The position numbers and the translations under genes are program-made. Of a stretch of 64,000 nucleotides of DNA, positions 6,804-30,471 are shown piece after piece; the first letter of the stretch is position 1, and every line of letters begins with the position of its first letter. This stretch comes from Halopiger djelfimassiliensis (GTDB lineage: Archaea > Halobacteriota > Halobacteria > Halobacteriales > Natrialbaceae), in contig NZ_HG315685.1 of the NCBI RefSeq assembly GCF_000455365.1, positions 237,514 through 301,513 on the forward strand, read 5' to 3'. A model generated the notes under the pieces. It saw only the letters and a list, made by a program, of their open reading frames with translations, was not told the origin of the DNA and made no database searches.

Positions 6804-8381
6804 CTACTCGAGCAGCGACTCGCCGGTCATCTCCGGCGGCTGTTCGAGACCGATCAACTCGAGGATGGTCGGCGCGATGTCCGCGAGCGTGCCGCCGCTG
6901 CGGACCGTCCGGCCGCCGTCGGAGTCAGACTCCGACGAGGATCGCGAACCGTCACCGGTTCGCCCACCGCCGTCCGTTCCGTCGCCGTCGACGTAGACGA
7001 GGGGGACGTCATTGTACGTGTGGGCGGTGTGGGGATCCTCCGCCGTTCCCATGTCGTCGGCGTTGCCGTGATCCGCGGTGACGAGGACGTGCGCGCCGTG
7101 GCTCTCGAGGGTCTCGACGAGTCGGCCGAGCTGTTCGTCGACGGCTTCGACGGCCTCGATCGCGGCCTCGTAGTCGCCGGTGTGGCCGACCATGTCCGGA
7201 TTGGCGTAGTTGAGCACGAGCACGTCCGGATCGTCCGAGCGGATCACGTCGATCGCGGCGTCGGTCACCTCGGCCGCGCTCATCTCGGGTTGCAGGTCGT
7301 AGGTCGGAACGTCGGGGCTCTCGACGATCTTCCGGATCTCGCCGTCGAACTCGACCTCGCGGCCCCCGTTGAGGAAGTAGGTGACGTGAGCGTACTTCTC
7401 GGATTCGGCGATCCGTAGCTGCGTCTTGCCGGCGTCCGCGAGCACCTCCCCGAGGACGTTCTCCGGCTGGGTCGGCGGGTACGCCACCGGGAGGTCGAAC
7501 GTCTTGTCGTACTGGGTCATCATCACGACCGCCGCGTCCGGCGGGCTCGTCTCGAACTCGTCGGCCCAGTCGTCGGAGCGGATATCCGCGAGCATGCGGG
7601 TCAGCTGGCGGGCACGGTCCGAGCGGAAGTTGAACCAGACGACCGAATCGCCGTCCTCGAGCGCCGGCCGCTCCGAGATCAGGGTCGGCTCGACGAACTC
7701 GTCGGTCTCGCCGCGGTCGTACGACGCTTCGACCGCTTCGACCGCCGAATCGGCCTCGTACTCGGCCTCGCGGTCGACGATGGCGTCGTAGGCCCGTTTC
7801 GTTCGCTCCCAGTTCTGGTCGCGGTCCATCGCGTAGTACCGGCCCGAGACGGTCGCCACGTGGCCGGTCCCGTGCTCGTCGACGACGCCCTCGAGCGTGC
7901 GCAGGTACTCCCGGCCGCCCGTCGGCGAGGTGTCTCGGCCGTCGGTGATGGCGTGTGTGACGGCCTCGACGCCGCGATCGGCCGCCAGTTCGATCAGCGC
8001 GTGGAGGTGCTCGTGATCCGAGTGAACGCCGCCGTCGCTGACGAGGCCGAGGAAGTGGATTCGGCCGTCGTTTTCGCGTGCGTTGTCGAAGGCCGTATTG
8101 ATCGCGTCGTTCTCCCGGAAGGAGCCGTCCGCGATCGAGTCCGAGATGCGCGTATACTCCTGGTAGACCACGCGGCCGGCCCCGATGTTGAGGTGCCCGA
8201 CCTCGCTGTTTCCCATCTGTCCGTCGGGGAGGCCGACTCGCCTGCCCGATACCTCGAGCGTCCCGTACGCCCCGGCCGTCGCGAGCCGATCGAACGTCGG
8301 GGTATCGGCCGCCTCGATCGCATCCCTGCCGTCGCCGTCACCGAGTCCCCAGCCGTCGAGGACGATCAGCGCAGCTTCCAT
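6804..8381 (-). CDS. gpmI: 2,3-bisphosphoglycerate-independent phosphoglycerate mutase
   Basis: 525 residues. It interconverts 3- and 2-phosphoglycerate in glycolysis and gluconeogenesis with two Mn ions and a phosphoserine. Seen: N-terminal LIVLDGWG, the phosphoserine loop GQMGNSEVGHLNIGAG (Ser about 62), DGRDTSP, FNFRSDRARQLTR, NYANPDMVGHTGD and VTADHGNADDM. These match the alkaline-phosphatase-superfamily mutase of bacteria and halophiles rather than the archaeal ApgM type. A hydrophilic Gly/Ser/Asp insert of about 30 residues lies just before the C-terminal GGTLADIAPTILELIG; it is encoded by paired palindromes (see findings). Confidence 0.97.
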   Translation of the reverse strand: MEAALIVLDGWGLGDGDGRDAIEAADTPTFDRLATAGAYGTLEVSGRRVGLPDGQMGNSEVGHLNIGAGRVVYQEYTRISDSIADGSFRENDAINTAFDNARENDGRIHFLGLVSDGGVHSDHEHLHALIELAADRGVEAVTHAITDGRDTSPTGGREYLRTLEGVVDEHGTGHVATVSGRYYAMDRDQNWERTKRAYDAIVDREAEYEADSAVEAVEASYDRGETDEFVEPTLISERPALEDGDSVVWFNFRSDRARQLTRMLADIRSDDWADEFETSPPDAAVVMMTQYDKTFDLPVAYPPTQPENVLGEVLADAGKTQLRIAESEKYAHVTYFLNGGREVEFDGEIRKIVESPDVPTYDLQPEMSAAEVTDAAIDVIRSDDPDVLVLNYANPDMVGHTGDYEAAIEAVEAVDEQLGRLVETLESHGAHVLVTADHGNADDMGTAEDPHTAHTYNDVPLVYVDGDGTDGGGRTGDGSRSSSESDSDGGRTVRSGGTLADIAPTILELIGLEQPPEMTGESLLE

Positions 8382-21829: not shown

Positions 21830-22729
21830 TCACTCCGGGGACGGCTGGTAGTACTGCTTGAGCCACGTCGTCAACCCGTCGAGCCCGGGAAACAGCGTCC
21901 GGTGGTTGACGTTCAGCTGGTCGAGTTTGTCGCGGAACTCGAGCTTCCGATCGCCCGGGACGACGATCTTCCGATAGCAGTCGGGTCGGTCCTCGAGCCA
22001 CCGATCGAGCACCAGCCGCGGGTCCGACTGGAAGGAGAAGACGGCGGACTGATTGACGATGCGGTCGTCGATCGCCGGCGGTCTGAAAAACAGTACGTAC
22101 TGATCCTCCTCAGGTCTGTCGTCGACGCCCCACATCTCCCGCCAGATCTCGGTGATCCGGGACACGTCGTTGAGATCGCGGATCGAGGCCGTATCCACCG
22201 CCCGCTCGCTCGCCTCGTACTCGAGGGTCGCGTTCGAGAGGAGGTGAACGTCGAACATGTTCATCTCCGTCACCTCGAGGACCTCCTGATAGTGGTCGGG
22301 GATGTCGGCGTGCAGCGTCCGGTAATCGACGGCCCAGATCGCCCCGTCGTGGTCGGTGTCGCCGCTTTGGACCGCGAAGTAGGCCGCGACAAGCGGCGAG
22401 AACGACCAGTCGAGCAACCGGGTCGGCAGGCCGTAGTGCTGGGCGATCGAGAGCAGGTGCCAGACCGACCGCGGTTCGTCGATCTCGTCCATCGCGTACT
22501 GTGCGAAGTTTCGGAGCAACAGCGGCTCGAGTTTCCACTCTCCCGTGTCGCCGACGAAGCGTTTGATCGACGTCTCGAGGGTAAAGCTCTCGTCGGGGAC
22601 GCCGCGAAACACGTAGGGAGCACGGTGGCGGCCGATGTCGGCCATCCACATCTCCCGGGAGAGGAGTTCGTGTAGCTCCGTCCACGTTTCGGCTCGAACG
22701 ACCGACGGTGAGGACTCGGTATCGGTCAT
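21830..22729 (-). CDS. FRG-domain protein
   Basis: 299 residues. The FRG domain (about 35-140) is marked by YVFRGVPDESFTLETSI and the strongly conserved LSIAQHYGLPTRLLDWSFSP followed by VAAYFAV. FRG proteins (named for Phe-Arg-Gly) are widespread, often in phage-defence or mobile regions, and are suspected nucleotide- or nucleic-acid-acting enzymes; biochemistry is sparse. The second half (about 200-290) contains FFRPPAIDDRIVNQSAVFSF and KIVVPGDRKLEFRDKL, also typical. No toxin or immunity partner is adjacent; neighbours are the methyltransferase and HerA-like ATPase. Confidence 0.85.
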   Translation of the reverse strand: MTDTESSPSVVRAETWTELHELLSREMWMADIGRHRAPYVFRGVPDESFTLETSIKRFVGDTGEWKLEPLLLRNFAQYAMDEIDEPRSVWHLLSIAQHYGLPTRLLDWSFSPLVAAYFAVQSGDTDHDGAIWAVDYRTLHADIPDHYQEVLEVTEMNMFDVHLLSNATLEYEASERAVDTASIRDLNDVSRITEIWREMWGVDDRPEEDQYVLFFRPPAIDDRIVNQSAVFSFQSDPRLVLDRWLEDRPDCYRKIVVPGDRKLEFRDKLDQLNVNHRTLFPGLDGLTTWLKQYYQPSPE

Positions 22730-22849: not shown

Positions 22850-23458
22850 TCACGCCGACGGAAGCAGCGTTCGCTCGAAGAAGTCACCGACGGCGTCGGC
22901 GACCGTCCCGTGCTGGCCGACGAAGAAGTGATCGGCCGAAAGCGCCACGACGCCGTCGTCCCGATCCCGCGCGAGGTCGACGACGGGTTCCCAGTCGGCG
23001 GTAGTATCCCGCTTGCCGTACAGTACAGTGACGGGACACTCGAGGACGGGCAACGCCTCACAAACGTCGAGATCGTCGTCGAGTTGCGCCGTCGGTGCGA
23101 GAGCGGCGACGGCCGCAACCGCGCGGTCGACGGTCGCGGTCGCGAGTATCGCCAGCGAAGCGCCGAAACTGAACCCGAAGACGCCGACGCGGTCGTACCG
23201 GTCGTCGGCCCAGCGGATGGCGTTGCGAACGTCCTCGCGTTCGCCGTGGCCGCCGTCCCACGCCCCGTAATCGAAACGGAGGCAGGCGATCCCCGCCTCC
23301 CGAAGCGTCTCCTCGACCGCCACGAGTCGCCGGTCGCTCCGGGAACCGCCGTGTTGCGGATGAGGTGGGCAGGCGACGACGATCGCGTCCGCGTCGTCGT
23401 CCGGTTCCTCGAGCACGCCGCGAACGTCTCTCCGTCCGGGTACGAGTACGTCCGTCAC
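22850..23458 (-). CDS. alpha/beta hydrolase (dienelactone-hydrolase-like)
   Basis: 202 residues. Seen: IVVACPPHPQHGGSRSD (oxyanion region), FDYGAWDGGHGE, a nucleophile elbow GFSFGAS (Ser about 97), an acid near YGKRDTTADW and the catalytic His in SADHFFVGQHG. The full alpha/beta hydrolase triad is thus present; the substrate is unknown. The start is a GTG at 23458. An earlier in-frame GTG at 23497 lies in the AT-rich AATATTGAT that looks like the TATA box, so the downstream start is preferred. Confidence 0.8.
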   Translation of the reverse strand: MTDVLVPGRRDVRGVLEEPDDDADAIVVACPPHPQHGGSRSDRRLVAVEETLREAGIACLRFDYGAWDGGHGEREDVRNAIRWADDRYDRVGVFGFSFGASLAILATATVDRAVAAVAALAPTAQLDDDLDVCEALPVLECPVTVLYGKRDTTADWEPVVDLARDRDDGVVALSADHFFVGQHGTVADAVGDFFERTLLPSA

Positions 23459-23584
23459 ACCGGCACTAGCACAGGGCTCGACAATCAATATTGCCACCGC
23501 GTTCCCGTCCGAAACGGCAACCCAGAGAGGGCCTCGTAACGCCCGACAGCGATCGATTTCGCGTCCGACTGTCGTTGATGTGAT

Positions 23585-23616: not shown

Positions 23617-24432
23617 ATGGGCATCCTCTCTCGGACCTCCTACGTCATCCGGTCGAAGATCAACTCGGTGCTCAACCGGGCCGAGGACCCGACCGAGACG
23701 CTCGATTACTCCTACGAGCAGATGCGCGACCAGCTCCAGCAGGTCAAACGCGGCATCGCCGACCTCACCACCCAGAAAAAGCGCCTCGAGATGCAAAAGC
23801 GACGGCTCGAGGACAACGTCGAGAAACACAACGAACAGGCACGCACCGCCGTCCAGCAGGGCCGGGAGGATCTGGCTCGACGCGCCCTCGAGAAGAAGAA
23901 GACGAAGATGAACCAGATCGAGGACCTCGATCGCCAGATTTCGGACCTCCAGAGCCAGCAGGACAGTTTGATCGACCAGAAAAACGAGCTCCAGACCCGC
24001 ATCGAGGAGTTCCGTACCAAAAAGGAGACCATGAAAGCCCGCTACGAGGCCGCCGAGGCGAGCTCGACGGTTTCCGAGGCGATGACGGCCACGGGCGAGG
24101 AGTTCGAGGACGTCGGCCGGGCCATCGAACGCGCCGAGGAACAGACCGAGGACATGGAAGCACGGGCCGCGGCGCTCGACGAACTCCACGAAACCGGGGC
24201 GTTCGACGACGTCCTCTCGGACAAAGACCAGATCGACCGCGAACTCGAGGAGCTCTCGACCGGCAGCGGCGTCGAAGCCGAGCTCGAGACGCTCAAGTCC
24301 GAGGTCGGCGAGGGCGATACCGAACCGGCGACCGAACCCGAGTCCGGCGTCGACGAACCGGACCTCGAAGGCGACGTGGACGAAGACGTCGAGGCCGAAC
24401 TCGCGGAACTGCAGGACGAAGAAAACGCATAG
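23617..24432 (+). CDS. pspA: PspA/IM30 (Vipp1-like) membrane-stress protein
   Basis: 271 residues, ESCRT-III superfamily membrane remodelling/protecting protein. N-terminal amphipathic helix and SRTSYVIRSKINSVLNRAED, then DYSYEQMRDQLQQVKRGI and long coiled coils (about 45-150) rich in Lys/Gln/Glu. A very acidic C-terminal tail (from about 215) is a haloarchaeal trait. In haloarchaea this protein accumulates under salt or membrane stress. It is transcribed alone, close to the cluster of four membrane-protein paralogues downstream. Confidence 0.93.
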   Translation: MGILSRTSYVIRSKINSVLNRAEDPTETLDYSYEQMRDQLQQVKRGIADLTTQKKRLEMQKRRLEDNVEKHNEQARTAVQQGREDLARRALEKKKTKMNQIEDLDRQISDLQSQQDSLIDQKNELQTRIEEFRTKKETMKARYEAAEASSTVSEAMTATGEEFEDVGRAIERAEEQTEDMEARAAALDELHETGAFDDVLSDKDQIDRELEELSTGSGVEAELETLKSEVGEGDTEPATEPESGVDEPDLEGDVDEDVEAELAELQDEENA

Positions 24433-24645: not shown

Positions 24646-25155
24646 TCACGCGGGGGTGCCCAGAACGGTGATGTCGTAGTCGGCGACGTCCGCGGGGGAC
24701 TCGAGAACGATCACCTGAAACGCCCACGTCTCGCCGCCCTCGAGGTCGCCGATACTGGCGAGATACCTCCCGAGGGCGTTGCCGGCAGCGTCGTAGACGC
24801 GCGTCCGGACTTCGACCAGTTGGATCCGGTCGCTGCCCGTGTTTTCGACGTGCCCTTGGACGGTCGAGCCGAGATAGCCGTCCTCGACGACGAACTCGTG
24901 GTCGGTCAGCGAGAGCGTCTCGAGCGGCGTCACCGCGTCGCTCGGTTCGCGCTCGGCGAGGGCTTCCGCCGTCGCCATCTCGGTCGCCGATCGGTTGGAG
25001 ACGTTACTGGCGTTTCGCTCGCCGACGGTGCCGTCCTCGTATCTCGGCTCGCCGTCGAGGCCGCCGGTTCCGATACAGCCGGCGGCGACGGCTCCGATGG
25101 CCGTGCCGAGCGACGCGAGCACGTACCGTCGACTCGGCGACCGTGAGCGAGTCAT
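24646..25155 (-). CDS. Tat lipoprotein with FxLYD-like domain
   Basis: 169 residues. A Tat/lipobox signal, SRRYVLASLGTAIGAVAAGC, places the lipidated Cys near residue 27. The C-terminal beta domain (about 78-165), with GYLGSTVQGHVENTGSD, VEVRTRVYDAAGNAL and WAFQVIVLESPADVADYDI, is like the FxLYD family of surface proteins. Function unknown; it may sense or bind something at the cell surface. Start ATG at 25155. Upstream, 25156-25359 is a bidirectional region between it and the first membrane paralogue. Confidence 0.85.
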   Translation of the reverse strand: MTRSRSPSRRYVLASLGTAIGAVAAGCIGTGGLDGEPRYEDGTVGERNASNVSNRSATEMATAEALAEREPSDAVTPLETLSLTDHEFVVEDGYLGSTVQGHVENTGSDRIQLVEVRTRVYDAAGNALGRYLASIGDLEGGETWAFQVIVLESPADVADYDITVLGTPA

Positions 25156-25359: not shown

Positions 25360-26409
25360 ATGGGGTCCTCCGAGACGGACGAGACGCTCGAGTCCTACGG
25401 GGCAGACGTCGGAGCGCGGGCCGGATCGCTGACCCGGTTTCACGAGTGGGTGCTGGTCGAGGGCAACCGGCTGAGCGTCGCGGCCGCCCTCTCGGTCGTG
25501 GTCTTCGCCGGTCTGATCGCGCTGTACGAACTCGGCCTCGTCAGCTTCCTCAACCCGAACTCCATGACGCGCGTGGCAAGCGGCATGATCGCCGGCACCT
25601 TCTCGCTCGTTACGCTCGTCGTTTCGGTCAACCAGCTCATCCTCTCACAGGAGTTCAGCGCGGCCGGCAGCGCCCGCGACCGACTCGAGGGCGTCGTGGA
25701 GTTTCGCGAGGACGTCGCCGACGAAGCGGCCGTTCCCGCGACGCCGGCAGCGCCCACGAACGTCCTCGGATTGATCGTCGAGTCGATCCATCACGACGCC
25801 GCTGCGCTCGCCGACGCCGTCACGGATCATAGCGCGACGGATCGCGAGACGATCGTTCGGTACGTAAACAGCGTCCAGCAGCGGACCGACGAGATCGAAG
25901 CCACGCTCGAGCAGGCCGAATTCGGCACCTTTTCCGCCCTTTCGGCCGCGATCAACTACGACGAGGCCTGGCAGCTGTACGCCGCGACTCACCTGCGCGG
26001 CGAGTACGCCGACTCGCTGCCGCCGGCGGCGCTCGAGCGACTCGACGACCTGATCGAGTCCCTGCGGCTGTTTCACGTCGCCCGCGAGCAGTACAAGACG
26101 ACCTATCTACAGCGGGAACTCACCCGATTCTCCCAGTTGACGATCTACTGTGGGGTGCCGTCGATCCTGTCGGCCGTCTTCGTCGGGCTCCTGTACGCCG
26201 ACGTTACCGGCCCGAGCATCAGCGTTGCAGTGCTCCCCTACGTCGTGATCGTGTTGACGATCGTCGTTTTCTCGCCGCTTTTCCTCCTCGTCTCCTATAT
26301 CCTCCGTACCGCGACGATCACGCGTCGAACCGCGTCGATCGGCCCGATGATCCCCCAGAAGGATCCCGAAGCGGGACCGTTCGAGGTGCACTACGGCGAG
26401 GAGCGGTAG
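25360..26409 (+). CDS. four-TM membrane protein of unknown function (paralogue 1 of 4)
   Basis: 349 residues. Layout: short cytosolic start, LVEGNRLSVAA followed by TM1 (about 38-57), TM2 ending SVNQLILSQEFSA (about 72-95), a soluble domain of about 140 residues, then REQYKTTYLQRELTRFSQLT leading into TM3 (about 265-285) and TM4 (about 293-320) and YILRTATITRRTASIGPMI. The same order occurs in the three next genes. I recognise the family only as a haloarchaeal membrane protein. Its stop codon abuts the stop of the opposite paralogue with no base between. Start ATG at 25360. Confidence 0.8.
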   Translation: MGSSETDETLESYGADVGARAGSLTRFHEWVLVEGNRLSVAAALSVVVFAGLIALYELGLVSFLNPNSMTRVASGMIAGTFSLVTLVVSVNQLILSQEFSAAGSARDRLEGVVEFREDVADEAAVPATPAAPTNVLGLIVESIHHDAAALADAVTDHSATDRETIVRYVNSVQQRTDEIEATLEQAEFGTFSALSAAINYDEAWQLYAATHLRGEYADSLPPAALERLDDLIESLRLFHVAREQYKTTYLQRELTRFSQLTIYCGVPSILSAVFVGLLYADVTGPSISVAVLPYVVIVLTIVVFSPLFLLVSYILRTATITRRTASIGPMIPQKDPEAGPFEVHYGEER

Positions 26410-27456
26410 TCACTCCCACTCGATGTCCGATCCGCGGTCGGTCTCGCGCAGGATGAACGGGCCGATCGCGAGCGTCCACTTCGCGACGGTGACGATCCGG
26501 AGAATATACGAGAGGAAGATCGAAAACGGCGTCACGCCGACCGCAAAGCCGAGGCCGACGACCAGTAGTCCGTGATCGATTCCGGCCGTCGTCCCGGCCA
26601 CGTCGCCGGTCTCGAAGATCAGGATCATGTACGCCGCGACCGCCAGCGCGGGCAACGAGACGTACACCAGCGCCCGCGAGATGTTGATGATCTCCCACCG
26701 GAAGTACAGCGTCTTGAAGTGTTCGCGGGCGGGACCGAAGAACTCGAGATCGCCGAGCAAGTCGTCGAACGCCGCGAGCGTCTCCTCGGAGAGCGTTTCG
26801 GCGTGGCGGTTACGGACCCGGCGGCCGGTGTAGATCTTCCAGGAGTAGTTGTACTTCAGGGCCGAGGCCACCACGTCGAACGTACCGAACTGCTTTCCCT
26901 CGAGGTCGGGCGCGACGCGTTCCGCGTCCGCGATGACTGCGTCGGCGTACTCGCGGACGTCCTCGCGTACCGATTCGTCGAGGTCGGATTCGGCTTCGAG
27001 ACGGTCGAGCACCTCCCGGGCGTGGTCGCCGGTCGTTTCGACGAGTCCCCGCAGGAACGTGGAGGGCTCCGGCGGGCTGGTATCCCGTCCGACGGCGTCT
27101 TCGACGTCCCGTCGGAACGCCATCGCGTCGGTCATCCGTTCGCGCTGATCGCCGAGGGGGCCGAGTTCTTGCGAGAGCACCAGCTGGTTGAACGTCAGGA
27201 CGAGGCTGACGCCCATGATGATCCCGATGATGACCGGCGTAAACAGCGCAAAGACCGGATCGGGGTCGAACAGCTTCGCGATCGATCCGGGGCCGAACTG
27301 GCCGAGCGCGACGAGCAACGCGTACGCGGCCGCAATCATCGTACCAGCGACGAGTAACCGGTTTCCCGTTACCAGAAACCACACGACCGGCGCGCCGCCG
27401 CGGACGCGGTCCTCGATCGTGTTCGCGGTCTCGTCGTGCCCCCCTGATTCGCTCAT
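26410..27456 (-). CDS. four-TM membrane protein of unknown function (paralogue 2 of 4)
   Basis: 348 residues, same family. Landmarks: VTGNRLLVAGTMIAAAYALL, FNQLVLSQELGPLGDQRERM, QFGTFDVVASALKYNYSWKI, AREHFKTLYFRWEIINISRA and YILRIVTVAKWTLAIGPFI. It is closest to paralogue 4 (shared SPPEP, FGPAREHFKTLYF, LAxGPFILRE). It is the only one on the minus strand, and its stop (26410-26412) directly follows paralogue 1's stop. The start at 27456 (MSESGG) is preferred over a GTG/ATG extension to 27507. It diverges from paralogue 3 over about 130 bases. Confidence 0.8.
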   Translation of the reverse strand: MSESGGHDETANTIEDRVRGGAPVVWFLVTGNRLLVAGTMIAAAYALLVALGQFGPGSIAKLFDPDPVFALFTPVIIGIIMGVSLVLTFNQLVLSQELGPLGDQRERMTDAMAFRRDVEDAVGRDTSPPEPSTFLRGLVETTGDHAREVLDRLEAESDLDESVREDVREYADAVIADAERVAPDLEGKQFGTFDVVASALKYNYSWKIYTGRRVRNRHAETLSEETLAAFDDLLGDLEFFGPAREHFKTLYFRWEIINISRALVYVSLPALAVAAYMILIFETGDVAGTTAGIDHGLLVVGLGFAVGVTPFSIFLSYILRIVTVAKWTLAIGPFILRETDRGSDIEWE

Positions 27457-27587
27457 ACAGGACGTACCGACCAGCACTGTTCGTACAAATGTTGCCGTCG
27501 TTTGCACGCAGCAAACCGGCCACGGACCGACGTGTAGCGGCTGCGTACCGCGCGTACGTTTTTTGGCCCGTCCATCGAACGCGCAGT

Positions 27588-28604
27588 ATGAGCGCCGATC
27601 GGACGATCGACGAGGAGGTGAGCCGGAGCGACCTCGTTCACGAGCGCCTTCGGGAGTCGCCGCTCAAACGCTGGGTGTTGCTCGACGGGAACCGGTACGT
27701 CCTCTCCGCGTTGTTCGCGGGAATCGTCTTTCTCACGTGTGCCGGTATCGGCTTCGCCGGCTACGTCCCCGTCACCGATCCGGCAACTGCGACGACGCTC
27801 GTCTCATCGATCGTCGGCGGGACGCTGCCGTTTATCACGATCGTCCTCGCGATCAACCAGCTCGTCCTCGCACAGGAGCTCGGCTGGCCCGGCGATCTCG
27901 AGGAGCGATTCGAGTCGATGGCGTCGTTCCGACGGGAGGTCGAAACGCTGACGGGTGAGTCCGTCAGCCCGGCTGCGCCGGCCGATTTCCTTCAGCTCAT
28001 CGTCGAAACCACCGCAGAGCATGCGGAGACGCTGCGTCCGGTCGCGGACCGGGTCGACGATCCGGCGCTCGCCGCGCTACTCGAGGACTTCGTCGACGCG
28101 GTCACACAGGAGGGGGCGGTCGTCAGCGACTCGCTCGCGGATGCGGATTTCGGGACGTTCGAGACGCTGTCGGCGGTGCTCGGTCACTTCAACGGCGCAC
28201 ACCTCTACGCGGCCCGGACGATACGGACCGACCACGCCGACGAGCTACCCGCCGAGGCCGTCGAGACGCTCGAGTTCCTCGTGGAGGTGCTCGGCTACGT
28301 CGCGATCGCCCGCCAGACGTTCAAGACGCTGTACATGCAGTACGAACTCGCGTTTCTCTCGCAGTTGCTCCTCGTCGTCGGCTTTCCGACGTTGCTCGGC
28401 GGCGGGATCTTCCTGATGACCTACGGTTCGATCATCGAGGCCGTCGGCGATCCGACCGTGCTCGTTCTCGTCGTCAGCGCCGTCGTTACGTTCGTCTTCC
28501 TTCCGTTTATCGTGCTGCTTGTCTATACGTTCCGTATCGCGTCGATCGCGAGCCGGACGGCCGACTTCGGCCCGTTCGTCCCGCGTGTCGAGTTCGAGGA
28601 CTGA
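27588..28604 (+). CDS. four-TM membrane protein of unknown function (paralogue 3 of 4)
   Basis: 338 residues, same family: LLDGNRYVLSALFAGIVFL, AINQLVLAQELGWPGDLEER, SPAAPADFLQLIVE, FGTFETLSAVLGHFNGAHLY, ARQTFKTLYMQYELAFLSQL and a C-terminal TYTFRIASIASRTADFGPF. TM3 and TM4 carry more Gly and Val than in paralogue 4. ATG at 27588 with TTTTTT at 27559-27564 (about 27 bases upstream) as a likely promoter. Followed after 66 bases by paralogue 4, so possibly co-transcribed with it. Confidence 0.8.
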   Translation: MSADRTIDEEVSRSDLVHERLRESPLKRWVLLDGNRYVLSALFAGIVFLTCAGIGFAGYVPVTDPATATTLVSSIVGGTLPFITIVLAINQLVLAQELGWPGDLEERFESMASFRREVETLTGESVSPAAPADFLQLIVETTAEHAETLRPVADRVDDPALAALLEDFVDAVTQEGAVVSDSLADADFGTFETLSAVLGHFNGAHLYAARTIRTDHADELPAEAVETLEFLVEVLGYVAIARQTFKTLYMQYELAFLSQLLLVVGFPTLLGGGIFLMTYGSIIEAVGDPTVLVLVVSAVVTFVFLPFIVLLVYTFRIASIASRTADFGPFVPRVEFED

Positions 28605-28670
28605 TCGTCCCGAGCCGTCGATTCCCGGCCCACATCTTTTGTTTACCGACGTGGTCGTCCGTCACGGTCG

Positions 28671-29765
28671 ATGGGTGATTCGGATCACGGCTCGCTCGCG
28701 GACGCAACCACGAGCGGGAACGAGAGCGGGCGTTCGGACGCGAATGCAAGCGACGAATCGGACGAGGAATCCGGGCAAGACAGGCTCGGTGGCCTGCGGC
28801 TGTGGCTGTTGCTCCGGGTGAACCGCTGGGTCTTCGCCGGTGCGATTCTGGCGATCGTGTTCGTAGCCCTCGTGGCCATGAGCCGGGCCGAACTGACGCC
28901 GTTCCGACGGATCGTCGAGCAGCAGGACGGGATCGAGTTCCTCTTCTCGGCGTTTATCGGTGCGATCATCACGGGGACCTCGATCGTCGTCACGATCAAC
29001 CAACTGGTCCTCTCGCAGGAACTGGGTGCGGTCGGCAAACAGCGCGAGCGCATGCACGAATCGATGCAGTTCCGGCGGGACATCGAGGACACGATCGACG
29101 AGGACACGAGTCCCCCCGAACCCGCGGCGTTTCTCTACGAACTCGTCGACGGCGTCGAGAAGCGTGCGACCGAACTCGAGGCGACGATGGAAGACGAACG
29201 GGACGAGGAACTACAGGCGAAGATCAGCGATTACGTCGACGACGCCGTCGGCAACGCACGGACCGTCAAGGACGATCTCGAGGAATCCCAGTTCGGCAGC
29301 TTCGACGTGATCTGGAACGCGCTCAACTTCAACTACTCGCGGAAGATCTACGACGCGCGCAAGATCCGGGCCGATCACACGGAATCGCTCTCGGACGAGG
29401 CAAACGAGAAGATCGACCACGTGATCGAGACGCTCCAGTTTTTCGGTCCCGCCCGCGAGCACTTCAAGACGCTGTACTTCCAGTGGGAACTGATCAACCT
29501 CTCGCGGGCGCTGCTGTACATCGCGATTCCCGCCCTGACGGTCATGGCGATGATGATCATGTACGTCGACGGGACCGCCCTTCCCGGGACGACGGCCGGA
29601 GTTGACAACCTCGTCTGGCTGACTAGCGCCGGGTTCGTCGTCGGCATCGCCCCGTTCGTCGTCTTTACGGTGTATATCCTCCGGATCGCGACGGTCGCGA
29701 AACGAACCCTCGCGATGGGGCCGTTCATCTTACGGGAGTCCCAGCGGGATCAAGACCTCGGCTGA
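28671..29765 (+). CDS. four-TM membrane protein of unknown function (paralogue 4 of 4)
   Basis: 364 residues. A Ser/Asp/Glu-rich N-terminus (about 1-40) precedes LRVNRWVFAGAILAIVFVAL, then TINQLVLSQELGAVGKQRERM, DTSPPEPAAFLYELVD, a coiled soluble domain, QFGSFDVIWNALNFNYSRKI, AREHFKTLYFQWELINLSRA and YILRIATVAKRTLAMGPFI. It ends 4 bases before the convergent RIC gene stop. The conserved NQLVLSQE and EHFKTLYF motifs face the soluble side next to TM2 and TM3, which suggests a shared oligomer interface or regulatory surface; no enzyme motif is seen. Confidence 0.8.
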   Translation: MGDSDHGSLADATTSGNESGRSDANASDESDEESGQDRLGGLRLWLLLRVNRWVFAGAILAIVFVALVAMSRAELTPFRRIVEQQDGIEFLFSAFIGAIITGTSIVVTINQLVLSQELGAVGKQRERMHESMQFRRDIEDTIDEDTSPPEPAAFLYELVDGVEKRATELEATMEDERDEELQAKISDYVDDAVGNARTVKDDLEESQFGSFDVIWNALNFNYSRKIYDARKIRADHTESLSDEANEKIDHVIETLQFFGPAREHFKTLYFQWELINLSRALLYIAIPALTVMAMMIMYVDGTALPGTTAGVDNLVWLTSAGFVVGIAPFVVFTVYILRIATVAKRTLAMGPFILRESQRDQDLG

Positions 29766-29769
29766 GCGG

Positions 29770-30471
29770 TCAGTCCAGTTTCGATTCGGCCTTCGGGAAG
29801 AGGACGTTGTTCTCCCGGTGGACGTGCATGTGGGTGTTTCGCTCGAGCTCCGCCAGTCGGTCGAGCATGGAGCGGTAGCTGGTACAGGCGTCGTCCGGGA
29901 CTGCGTAGCCGTCGGTGAGTTCCTCGAGTCGTTCGAGGCGGGCCGCGGTTTCGTCGTGGTCGGCCTCGAGCTGGTCGATCTCCTCCCACAGCGTCTCCCG
30001 CTCCGCGACCGTAAGTTCGACTCCGGTGTCGAGTTTCTTGATGATCGGGAACGCGGTCTGTTCCTCGTCGTCGATGTGGGTCGACAGCTCCGCGGCGAGG
30101 TCGCGAAACTCCGTCTCGACCTTCCGCAACGAGGGATGTGCGTCCCCGTGGACGCGGGCGACCTTCTCGACGAGCGCCTCCAGTTCCGGCAACTCGGTTC
30201 GAAGATAGCGATGGTGCTCCCAGACGATGAGATTCGCCAACTGCGTCAGCGACTCCCACCCGCGTTCCCGCCCGTCGCCCTCCGATCGGGCGGCTTCCAG
30301 CCGATCGCACACGTCGGCGACCTCGAGTCCCGCGTCGGCACACGCGGTCGCCAACGAGACCGTCCCCCCACAGCAGTAATCGATATCGAGGGACTCGAAG
30401 ACGCGGGCGAAGTCGGGGTTGTCTTCGACGAGCTGTCCGAGCTGCCGTTCCGGATCGATCGTAGCGTTCAT
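29770..30471 (-). CDS. ric: di-iron iron-sulfur cluster repair protein (RIC/YtfE/ScdA family)
   Basis: 233 residues. N-terminal ScdA domain with DIDYCCGGTVSLATACADAG (CC pair about 33-34), then a hemerythrin-like four-helix bundle: VWEHHRYLR, HPSLRKVETEFRDLAAELS, HIDDEEQTAFPIIKKLD, ADHDETAARL and HMHVHRENNVLFPKAE. The His/Glu ligands of the non-haem di-iron site are present. Family members repair Fe-S clusters damaged by nitric oxide or oxidants. Transcribed alone. Confidence 0.93.
   Translation of the reverse strand: MNATIDPERQLGQLVEDNPDFARVFESLDIDYCCGGTVSLATACADAGLEVADVCDRLEAARSEGDGRERGWESLTQLANLIVWEHHRYLRTELPELEALVEKVARVHGDAHPSLRKVETEFRDLAAELSTHIDDEEQTAFPIIKKLDTGVELTVAERETLWEEIDQLEADHDETAARLERLEELTDGYAVPDDACTSYRSMLDRLAELERNTHMHVHRENNVLFPKAESKLD

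Follow-up and report, generated by a model that had tools for sequence, protein, structure and literature searches.

A candidate membrane partner of PspA in haloarchaea: a nameless four-TM protein family and its four-gene array beside pspA in Halopiger djelfimassiliensis

Four paralogous genes downstream of pspA

The window analysed here, a stretch of 64,000 nucleotides from Halopiger djelfimassiliensis, carries at positions 25360-29765 an array of four complete open reading frames that encode proteins of a single four-TM family. P0001 (25360..26409, plus strand, 349 aa) and P0004 (28671..29765, plus strand, 364 aa) were assigned to the family by open reading frame, alignment, tree and AlphaFold2 model; P0003 (27588..28604, plus strand, 338 aa) by open reading frame, alignment and tree; and P0002 (26410..27456, minus strand, 348 aa) by open reading frame, alignment and a Halopiger orthologue in the same orientation. 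P0002 runs antiparallel to the other three: it lies tail to tail with P0001, their stop codons abutting, and head to head with P0003, their start codons 131 bp apart. P0004 follows P0003 in the same direction after a gap of 66 bp.

Full-length alignment of the paralogues gave 28-33% identity to P0001, and 47% between P0002 and P0004. Searching the organism's own genome with P0002 recovered the other array members at E = 2e-95, 3e-45 and 6e-41, values that exclude chance as the cause of the likeness, together with a fifth family member on a separate contig (G000:C3:176220-177161, E = 2e-39). The first-pass annotation had described four neighbouring paralogues of the same design, and the complete reading frames, the end-to-end alignment and the within-genome E-values bear this out. 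The motifs that it quoted hold for the family as a whole but are not literally present in all four proteins, since their exact forms differ between paralogues: QFGTF is exact in P0002 only, the other three having EFGTF, DFGTF and QFGSF; P0002 and P0004 have an exact EHFKTLYF; and GPFI is replaced by GPMI or GPFV in P0001 and P0003.

Upstream of the array lies pspA (23617..24432, plus strand), whose product matches PF04012 (E = 6.2e-33) and is the proposed partner of the family. PspA/IM30/Vipp1 proteins form the prokaryotic branch of the ESCRT-III superfamily of membrane-remodelling proteins. Divergent from pspA is an alpha/beta-hydrolase-like gene (22850..23497, minus strand; Peptidase_S15/DLH matches), which clustered with the pspA/four-TM locus at 51 loci; across haloarchaea, it is a frequent companion of pspA and the four-TM gene, even after reordering. 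Between pspA and P0001 sits a lipoprotein-like gene (24646..25155, minus strand) whose N-terminus has a twin Arg and a Cys; it has a weak match to DUF3426, below the cut-off, and was found at 40 loci, being conserved mainly in Natrialbaceae. Because this opposite-strand gene intervenes, pspA does not form an operon with the array in the window. Two further genes were observed nearby: an FRG-domain gene (21830-22729, minus strand; PF08867, E = 1e-24), and a gene for a ScdA_N and hemerythrin protein of the iron-sulfur repair type (29770-30471, minus strand), which is convergent with P0004 with 4 bp between them.

To what extent the four genes are a local product could be read from a family tree of 105 rows, built by a quick method, and from gene order in related genomes. 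In the tree, P0001 is found in a pspA-linked clade of 21 rows, most of them from Natrialbaceae; P0002 pairs with a Halopiger copy; P0003 lies with Haladaptatus in a deep, divergent clade of four rows; and the clade of P0004 contains the majority of the pspA-adjacent copies, including other pspA-linked ones from Natrialbaceae. Halopiger goleimassiliensis has orthologues of all four (71-78% identity), with order and orientation kept, plus one extra member, and the array is partly present in Haloterrigena, Natrinema and Halobiforma. An earlier suggestion of local expansion is contradicted by these separate deep clades and by an array common to Halopiger and, in part, to other Natrialbaceae; tree and synteny likewise rule out recent tandem duplication. 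Judged by tree and gene order, the four genes are ancient paralogues rather than a fresh expansion.

Distribution of the family and its linkage with pspA

Searches of Pfam, NCBIfam, PADLOC and PHROGs with the four proteins returned no model that names them, the matches being weak, sub-threshold and different between paralogues; Pfam matches among 94 relatives were likewise weak and inconsistent. A PDB sequence search with the 94-member profile gave nothing below E = 0.16, and Foldseek found no match in PDB or BFVD at E up to 0.001. The top rows of VIA-align (designed helical bundles, a pectin methylesterase inhibitor, PilJ and TTYH) covered mostly the four-helix bundle, a common arrangement, and were set aside. 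The sequence and profile searches thus agree with the initial statement that the proteins belong to no recognised transporter or enzyme family, and the profile search proposed at that stage matched no well-known channel or transporter. The family remains nameless; it is defined here family-wide, and one earlier sentence concerns a very probable member, Hvo2637 of Haloferax.

Family members were present in 274 of 292 sampled haloarchaeal genomes, which had between one and eight matches each, and 73 of 77 genera were represented. A collection-wide genome scan, in which the best 80 of 274 confirmed stretches were examined, yielded haloarchaeal sequences throughout; given that number, rare family members may exist elsewhere. 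Outside haloarchaea, one genome within the sampled phylum (G309) carries a full copy, at 7037-8086 of locus L121 (G309:C2:315000-330000). This genome is AT-rich, has transposase-like genes beside the family copy and yielded no detectable PspA, and in the tree its copy grouped with a haloarchaeal plasmid copy; on these grounds, it was probably acquired laterally. Plasmid carriage is common, with 69 haloarchaeal plasmid records holding family members. No relatives were found in the viral contigs and phage records searched, and a viral origin was rejected on this ground. Accessory copies (at L129, L131, L020 and other loci) are often found near HPP-family, TIGR00341, AI-2E-type and universal-stress-protein genes, and broken family remnants (G029:C1:899617-902139; G028:C1:688902-689374) suggest that such copies may turn over.

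pspA itself was found in 287 of the 292 haloarchaeal genomes, mostly in one or two copies. Among the matches listed, 62 of the 79 genomes with both genes placed have a family copy within 8 kb of pspA (38/40 Natrialbaceae genomes and 24/39 others), compared with a chance expectation of a few per cent, a figure that we estimated from the size of the interval and the number of copies. At 62 of 72 examined loci the nearest family member lies downstream of pspA on the same strand, a proportion biased by the choice of loci, some of which were picked for similarity to the window proteins. In several lineages outside Natrialbaceae the family gene follows pspA in the same direction after only 26-136 bp, a spacing that appears operon-like; such pairs were seen in Haloprofundus, Halegenticoccus, Halarchaeum, Halorientalis, Halolamina, one Haloferax genome and several further genomes. 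The Haloferax genome (G040), in which the family member is 136 bp downstream of pspA, was assigned to that genus by a 19 kb stretch with ~92% identity to Haloferax gibbonsii and H. alexandrinus plasmids. In Haloarcula, pspA and the family gene are convergent with genes in between, so that the link is kept despite the altered arrangement. The upstream pspA, first offered as a hint, therefore proved a sound clue: the link is conserved across lineages, and is operon-like in many.

The two genes also occur apart. Three haloarchaea (G039, G127 and G217), in addition to G309, have the family without detectable pspA, and in G039 a copy still lies beside the hydrolase gene, where no pspA was found; in sixteen genomes pspA is present and the family is missing; and many accessory copies, including the fifth copy of the present genome, are far from pspA or on plasmids. 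Both are near-universal in haloarchaea, and their presence and absence are weakly correlated (Fisher p = 0.03). Since each gene is found without the other, the partnership cannot be strict, and shared neighbourhood is by itself no proof of contact between PspA and the family protein.

In a different explanation, the family is a stand-alone membrane-stress sensor or osmosensor whose own cytosolic helical domain acts on other partners, for instance a small DUF4177 protein, and whose position beside pspA is inherited. Deep clades without pspA in the tree and a still visible ancestral order round pspA-hydrolase-pyrG would fit this, as would the DUF4177 gene that directly precedes the family gene, with a 4-bp overlap, on plasmids of Haloterrigena, Natronosalvus, Halocatena and Halococcus and suggests that the DUF4177 protein may be a second partner for one subclade. 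However, the pspA link is kept where other flanks have changed, close same-strand spacing is common, and the present genome has no DUF4177 match at the threshold used, which speaks against such a partner here. We consider this explanation unlikely. DUF4177/family pairs on haloarchaeal plasmids are located at L132 5630-6849, L133 5630-6849, L130 5582-6849 and L131 1640-2889.

Predicted topology and a conserved cytosolic face

AlphaFold2 models of P0001 (pLDDT 88, pTM 0.81) and P0004 (pLDDT 86, pTM 0.79) agree in the order TM1, TM2, long helix, helical bundle, TM3 and TM4, with the last bundle helix continuing straight into TM3. Two plasmid rows were left out of the folding alignment A3. From their four hydrophobic segments and the modelled helices, the proteins are integral to the membrane. 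The segments that precede TM1 and TM3 and the one that follows TM4 carry net positive charge, and the loops TM1-TM2 and TM3-TM4 are negative; by the positive-inside rule this pattern, together with the models, points to a topology in which the bundle and both the N- and the C-terminus are predicted to be cytosolic.

Sequence conservation is concentrated on the same side. There are 39 columns whose conservation reaches 90% or more of the sequences; 24 of these fall no more than 12 residues from one of the four cytosolic TM ends (p = 1e-5), and the outer TM ends have none nearby. Conserved residues at the cytosolic ends comprise R52, NQ..SxE117, K266/E273, R338 and GP350-351 (P0004 numbering), and these columns make the cytosolic membrane interface the likely functional site. 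One could imagine instead an effector embedded in the membrane that by itself stabilises or orders the archaeal lipid bilayer, with no signalling or channel role, and the all-helical amphiphilic design and the frequent membrane or stress neighbours, HPP and universal stress proteins among them, would agree with it. Conservation nevertheless peaks at the cytosolic face rather than in lipid-facing or outer parts, suggesting a specific binding or coupling site, and we regard an effector of this kind as very unlikely.

The main rival explanation takes its lead from the architecture: the family would be a bestrophin-like oligomeric ion channel, with four TM helices round a pore and a cytosolic helical vestibule, passing ions (perhaps chloride) in osmotic adjustment, and the PspA next door would answer the same stress without being a physical partner. 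The order of parts, two TM helices, a cytosolic helical part and two TM helices, and the topology proposed above match bacterial bestrophins (PF25539), and VIA-align gave weak whole-length matches to Klebsiella bestrophin (4wd7_C, Z 6.9, 212 residues aligned, rmsd 7.9; 6iv1_C, Z 7.3). By the tool's own account, however, Z values of ~7 are in the chance range for helical proteins; these were not above unrelated helical rows, the rmsd was high (about 8-9), and Foldseek gave no significant match. A role in salt management would fit a family that is nearly restricted to haloarchaea, multicopy and often found on plasmids, and copies without PspA exist, as a channel would allow.

Sequence comparison speaks against this relationship. 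Alignment by hhalign with ten bacterial bestrophins (PF25539-type) gave probabilities of 0.1-0.2%, and free profile alignment was no better than with locally shuffled columns; a likeness seen by eye at TM3 and the end of TM4 (SY...PF) failed both controls. The conserved TM2 segment NQLVLSQE is unlike the bestrophin consensus at that place. The bestrophin profiles PF01062, PF25539 and PF14023 had no hmmscan match in the four proteins or the 94 relatives, and PF25539 was absent from the 295 genomes sampled in the phylum. That the family is a bestrophin is thus not supported by the sequence tests; a channel-like function is possible, and the full account, with PspA as a bystander, seems to us quite unlikely.

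A proposed membrane partner of PspA

Because the family is linked to pspA in operon-like fashion, sits in the membrane and is conserved on its cytosolic face, its core lineage is best read as a haloarchaeal membrane partner of PspA, acting as an anchor or a stress sensor, a reading to which we assign a probability of roughly 0.45. The helical bundle and the conserved cytosolic TM ends might recruit PspA to the membrane, or might hold PspA and release it under membrane stress; either recruitment or release would let PspA assemble where it is needed. The family would in this way fill the role of bacterial PspB/PspC, LiaI/LiaF or PspM. Most haloarchaea have a single family gene beside pspA; in Natrialbaceae the same position is held by an array of old paralogues, which might each respond to a stress of their own or assemble into mixed oligomers. 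What the analysis demonstrates is the family, its distribution, its linkage with pspA, the modelled architecture and where the conserved residues lie; the mechanism, the contact with PspA and any sharing of tasks between paralogues are inferred. A more far-reaching version, which we offer tentatively and hold to be doubtful, would be a Psp system of the haloarchaea's own, in which a new four-TM sensor controls an ESCRT-III-like PspA and the Natrialbaceae array supplies stress-specific inputs or mixed oligomers.

Archaeal Psp networks have been described as largely unknown (PMC9239133), and according to a review, Haloferax PspA increases at high salt (PMC3235422). In the literature on haloarchaeal PspA partners we found only one sentence, which notes that in Haloferax volcanii the gene downstream of pspA encodes a transmembrane protein, Hvo2637 (Popp et al., 2022; PMC9239133); it was given weak bPH_4 and EphA2_TM domains and no family name, and paralogue arrays were not addressed. 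Hvo2637 occupies the same position as the Haloferax gene 136 bp downstream of pspA, and from this position, rather than from sequence, it is very probably an orthologue of the four-TM family, although the family matches neither of the domains assigned there. Beyond that report, the present analysis adds the definition of the family, its near-universality and the breadth and tightness of its pspA link, as well as the array of old paralogues, the predicted topology with its conserved face, and the counter-examples to strict partnership. A near-universal, nameless membrane protein beside pspA offers genetic work on haloarchaea, in Haloferax volcanii for instance, a direct candidate for bringing PspA to the archaeal membrane or keeping it there.

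Bacterial Psp systems employ unrelated membrane proteins, PspB/PspC, LiaI/LiaF and PspM, as partners (PMC11237479, PMC9239133). No PspB/PspC, LiaI-LiaF-TM or PspM model of Pfam or NCBIfam matched the four proteins at E up to 1, and none was among the listed Pfam matches of the 94 relatives. Like PspB/PspC, LiaI/LiaF, PspM and YdjG/H, the haloarchaeal family consists of integral membrane proteins that are encoded with a PspA homologue and proposed to recruit or regulate it; unlike them, with their other TM arrangements, it has a cytosolic bundle between two TM pairs.
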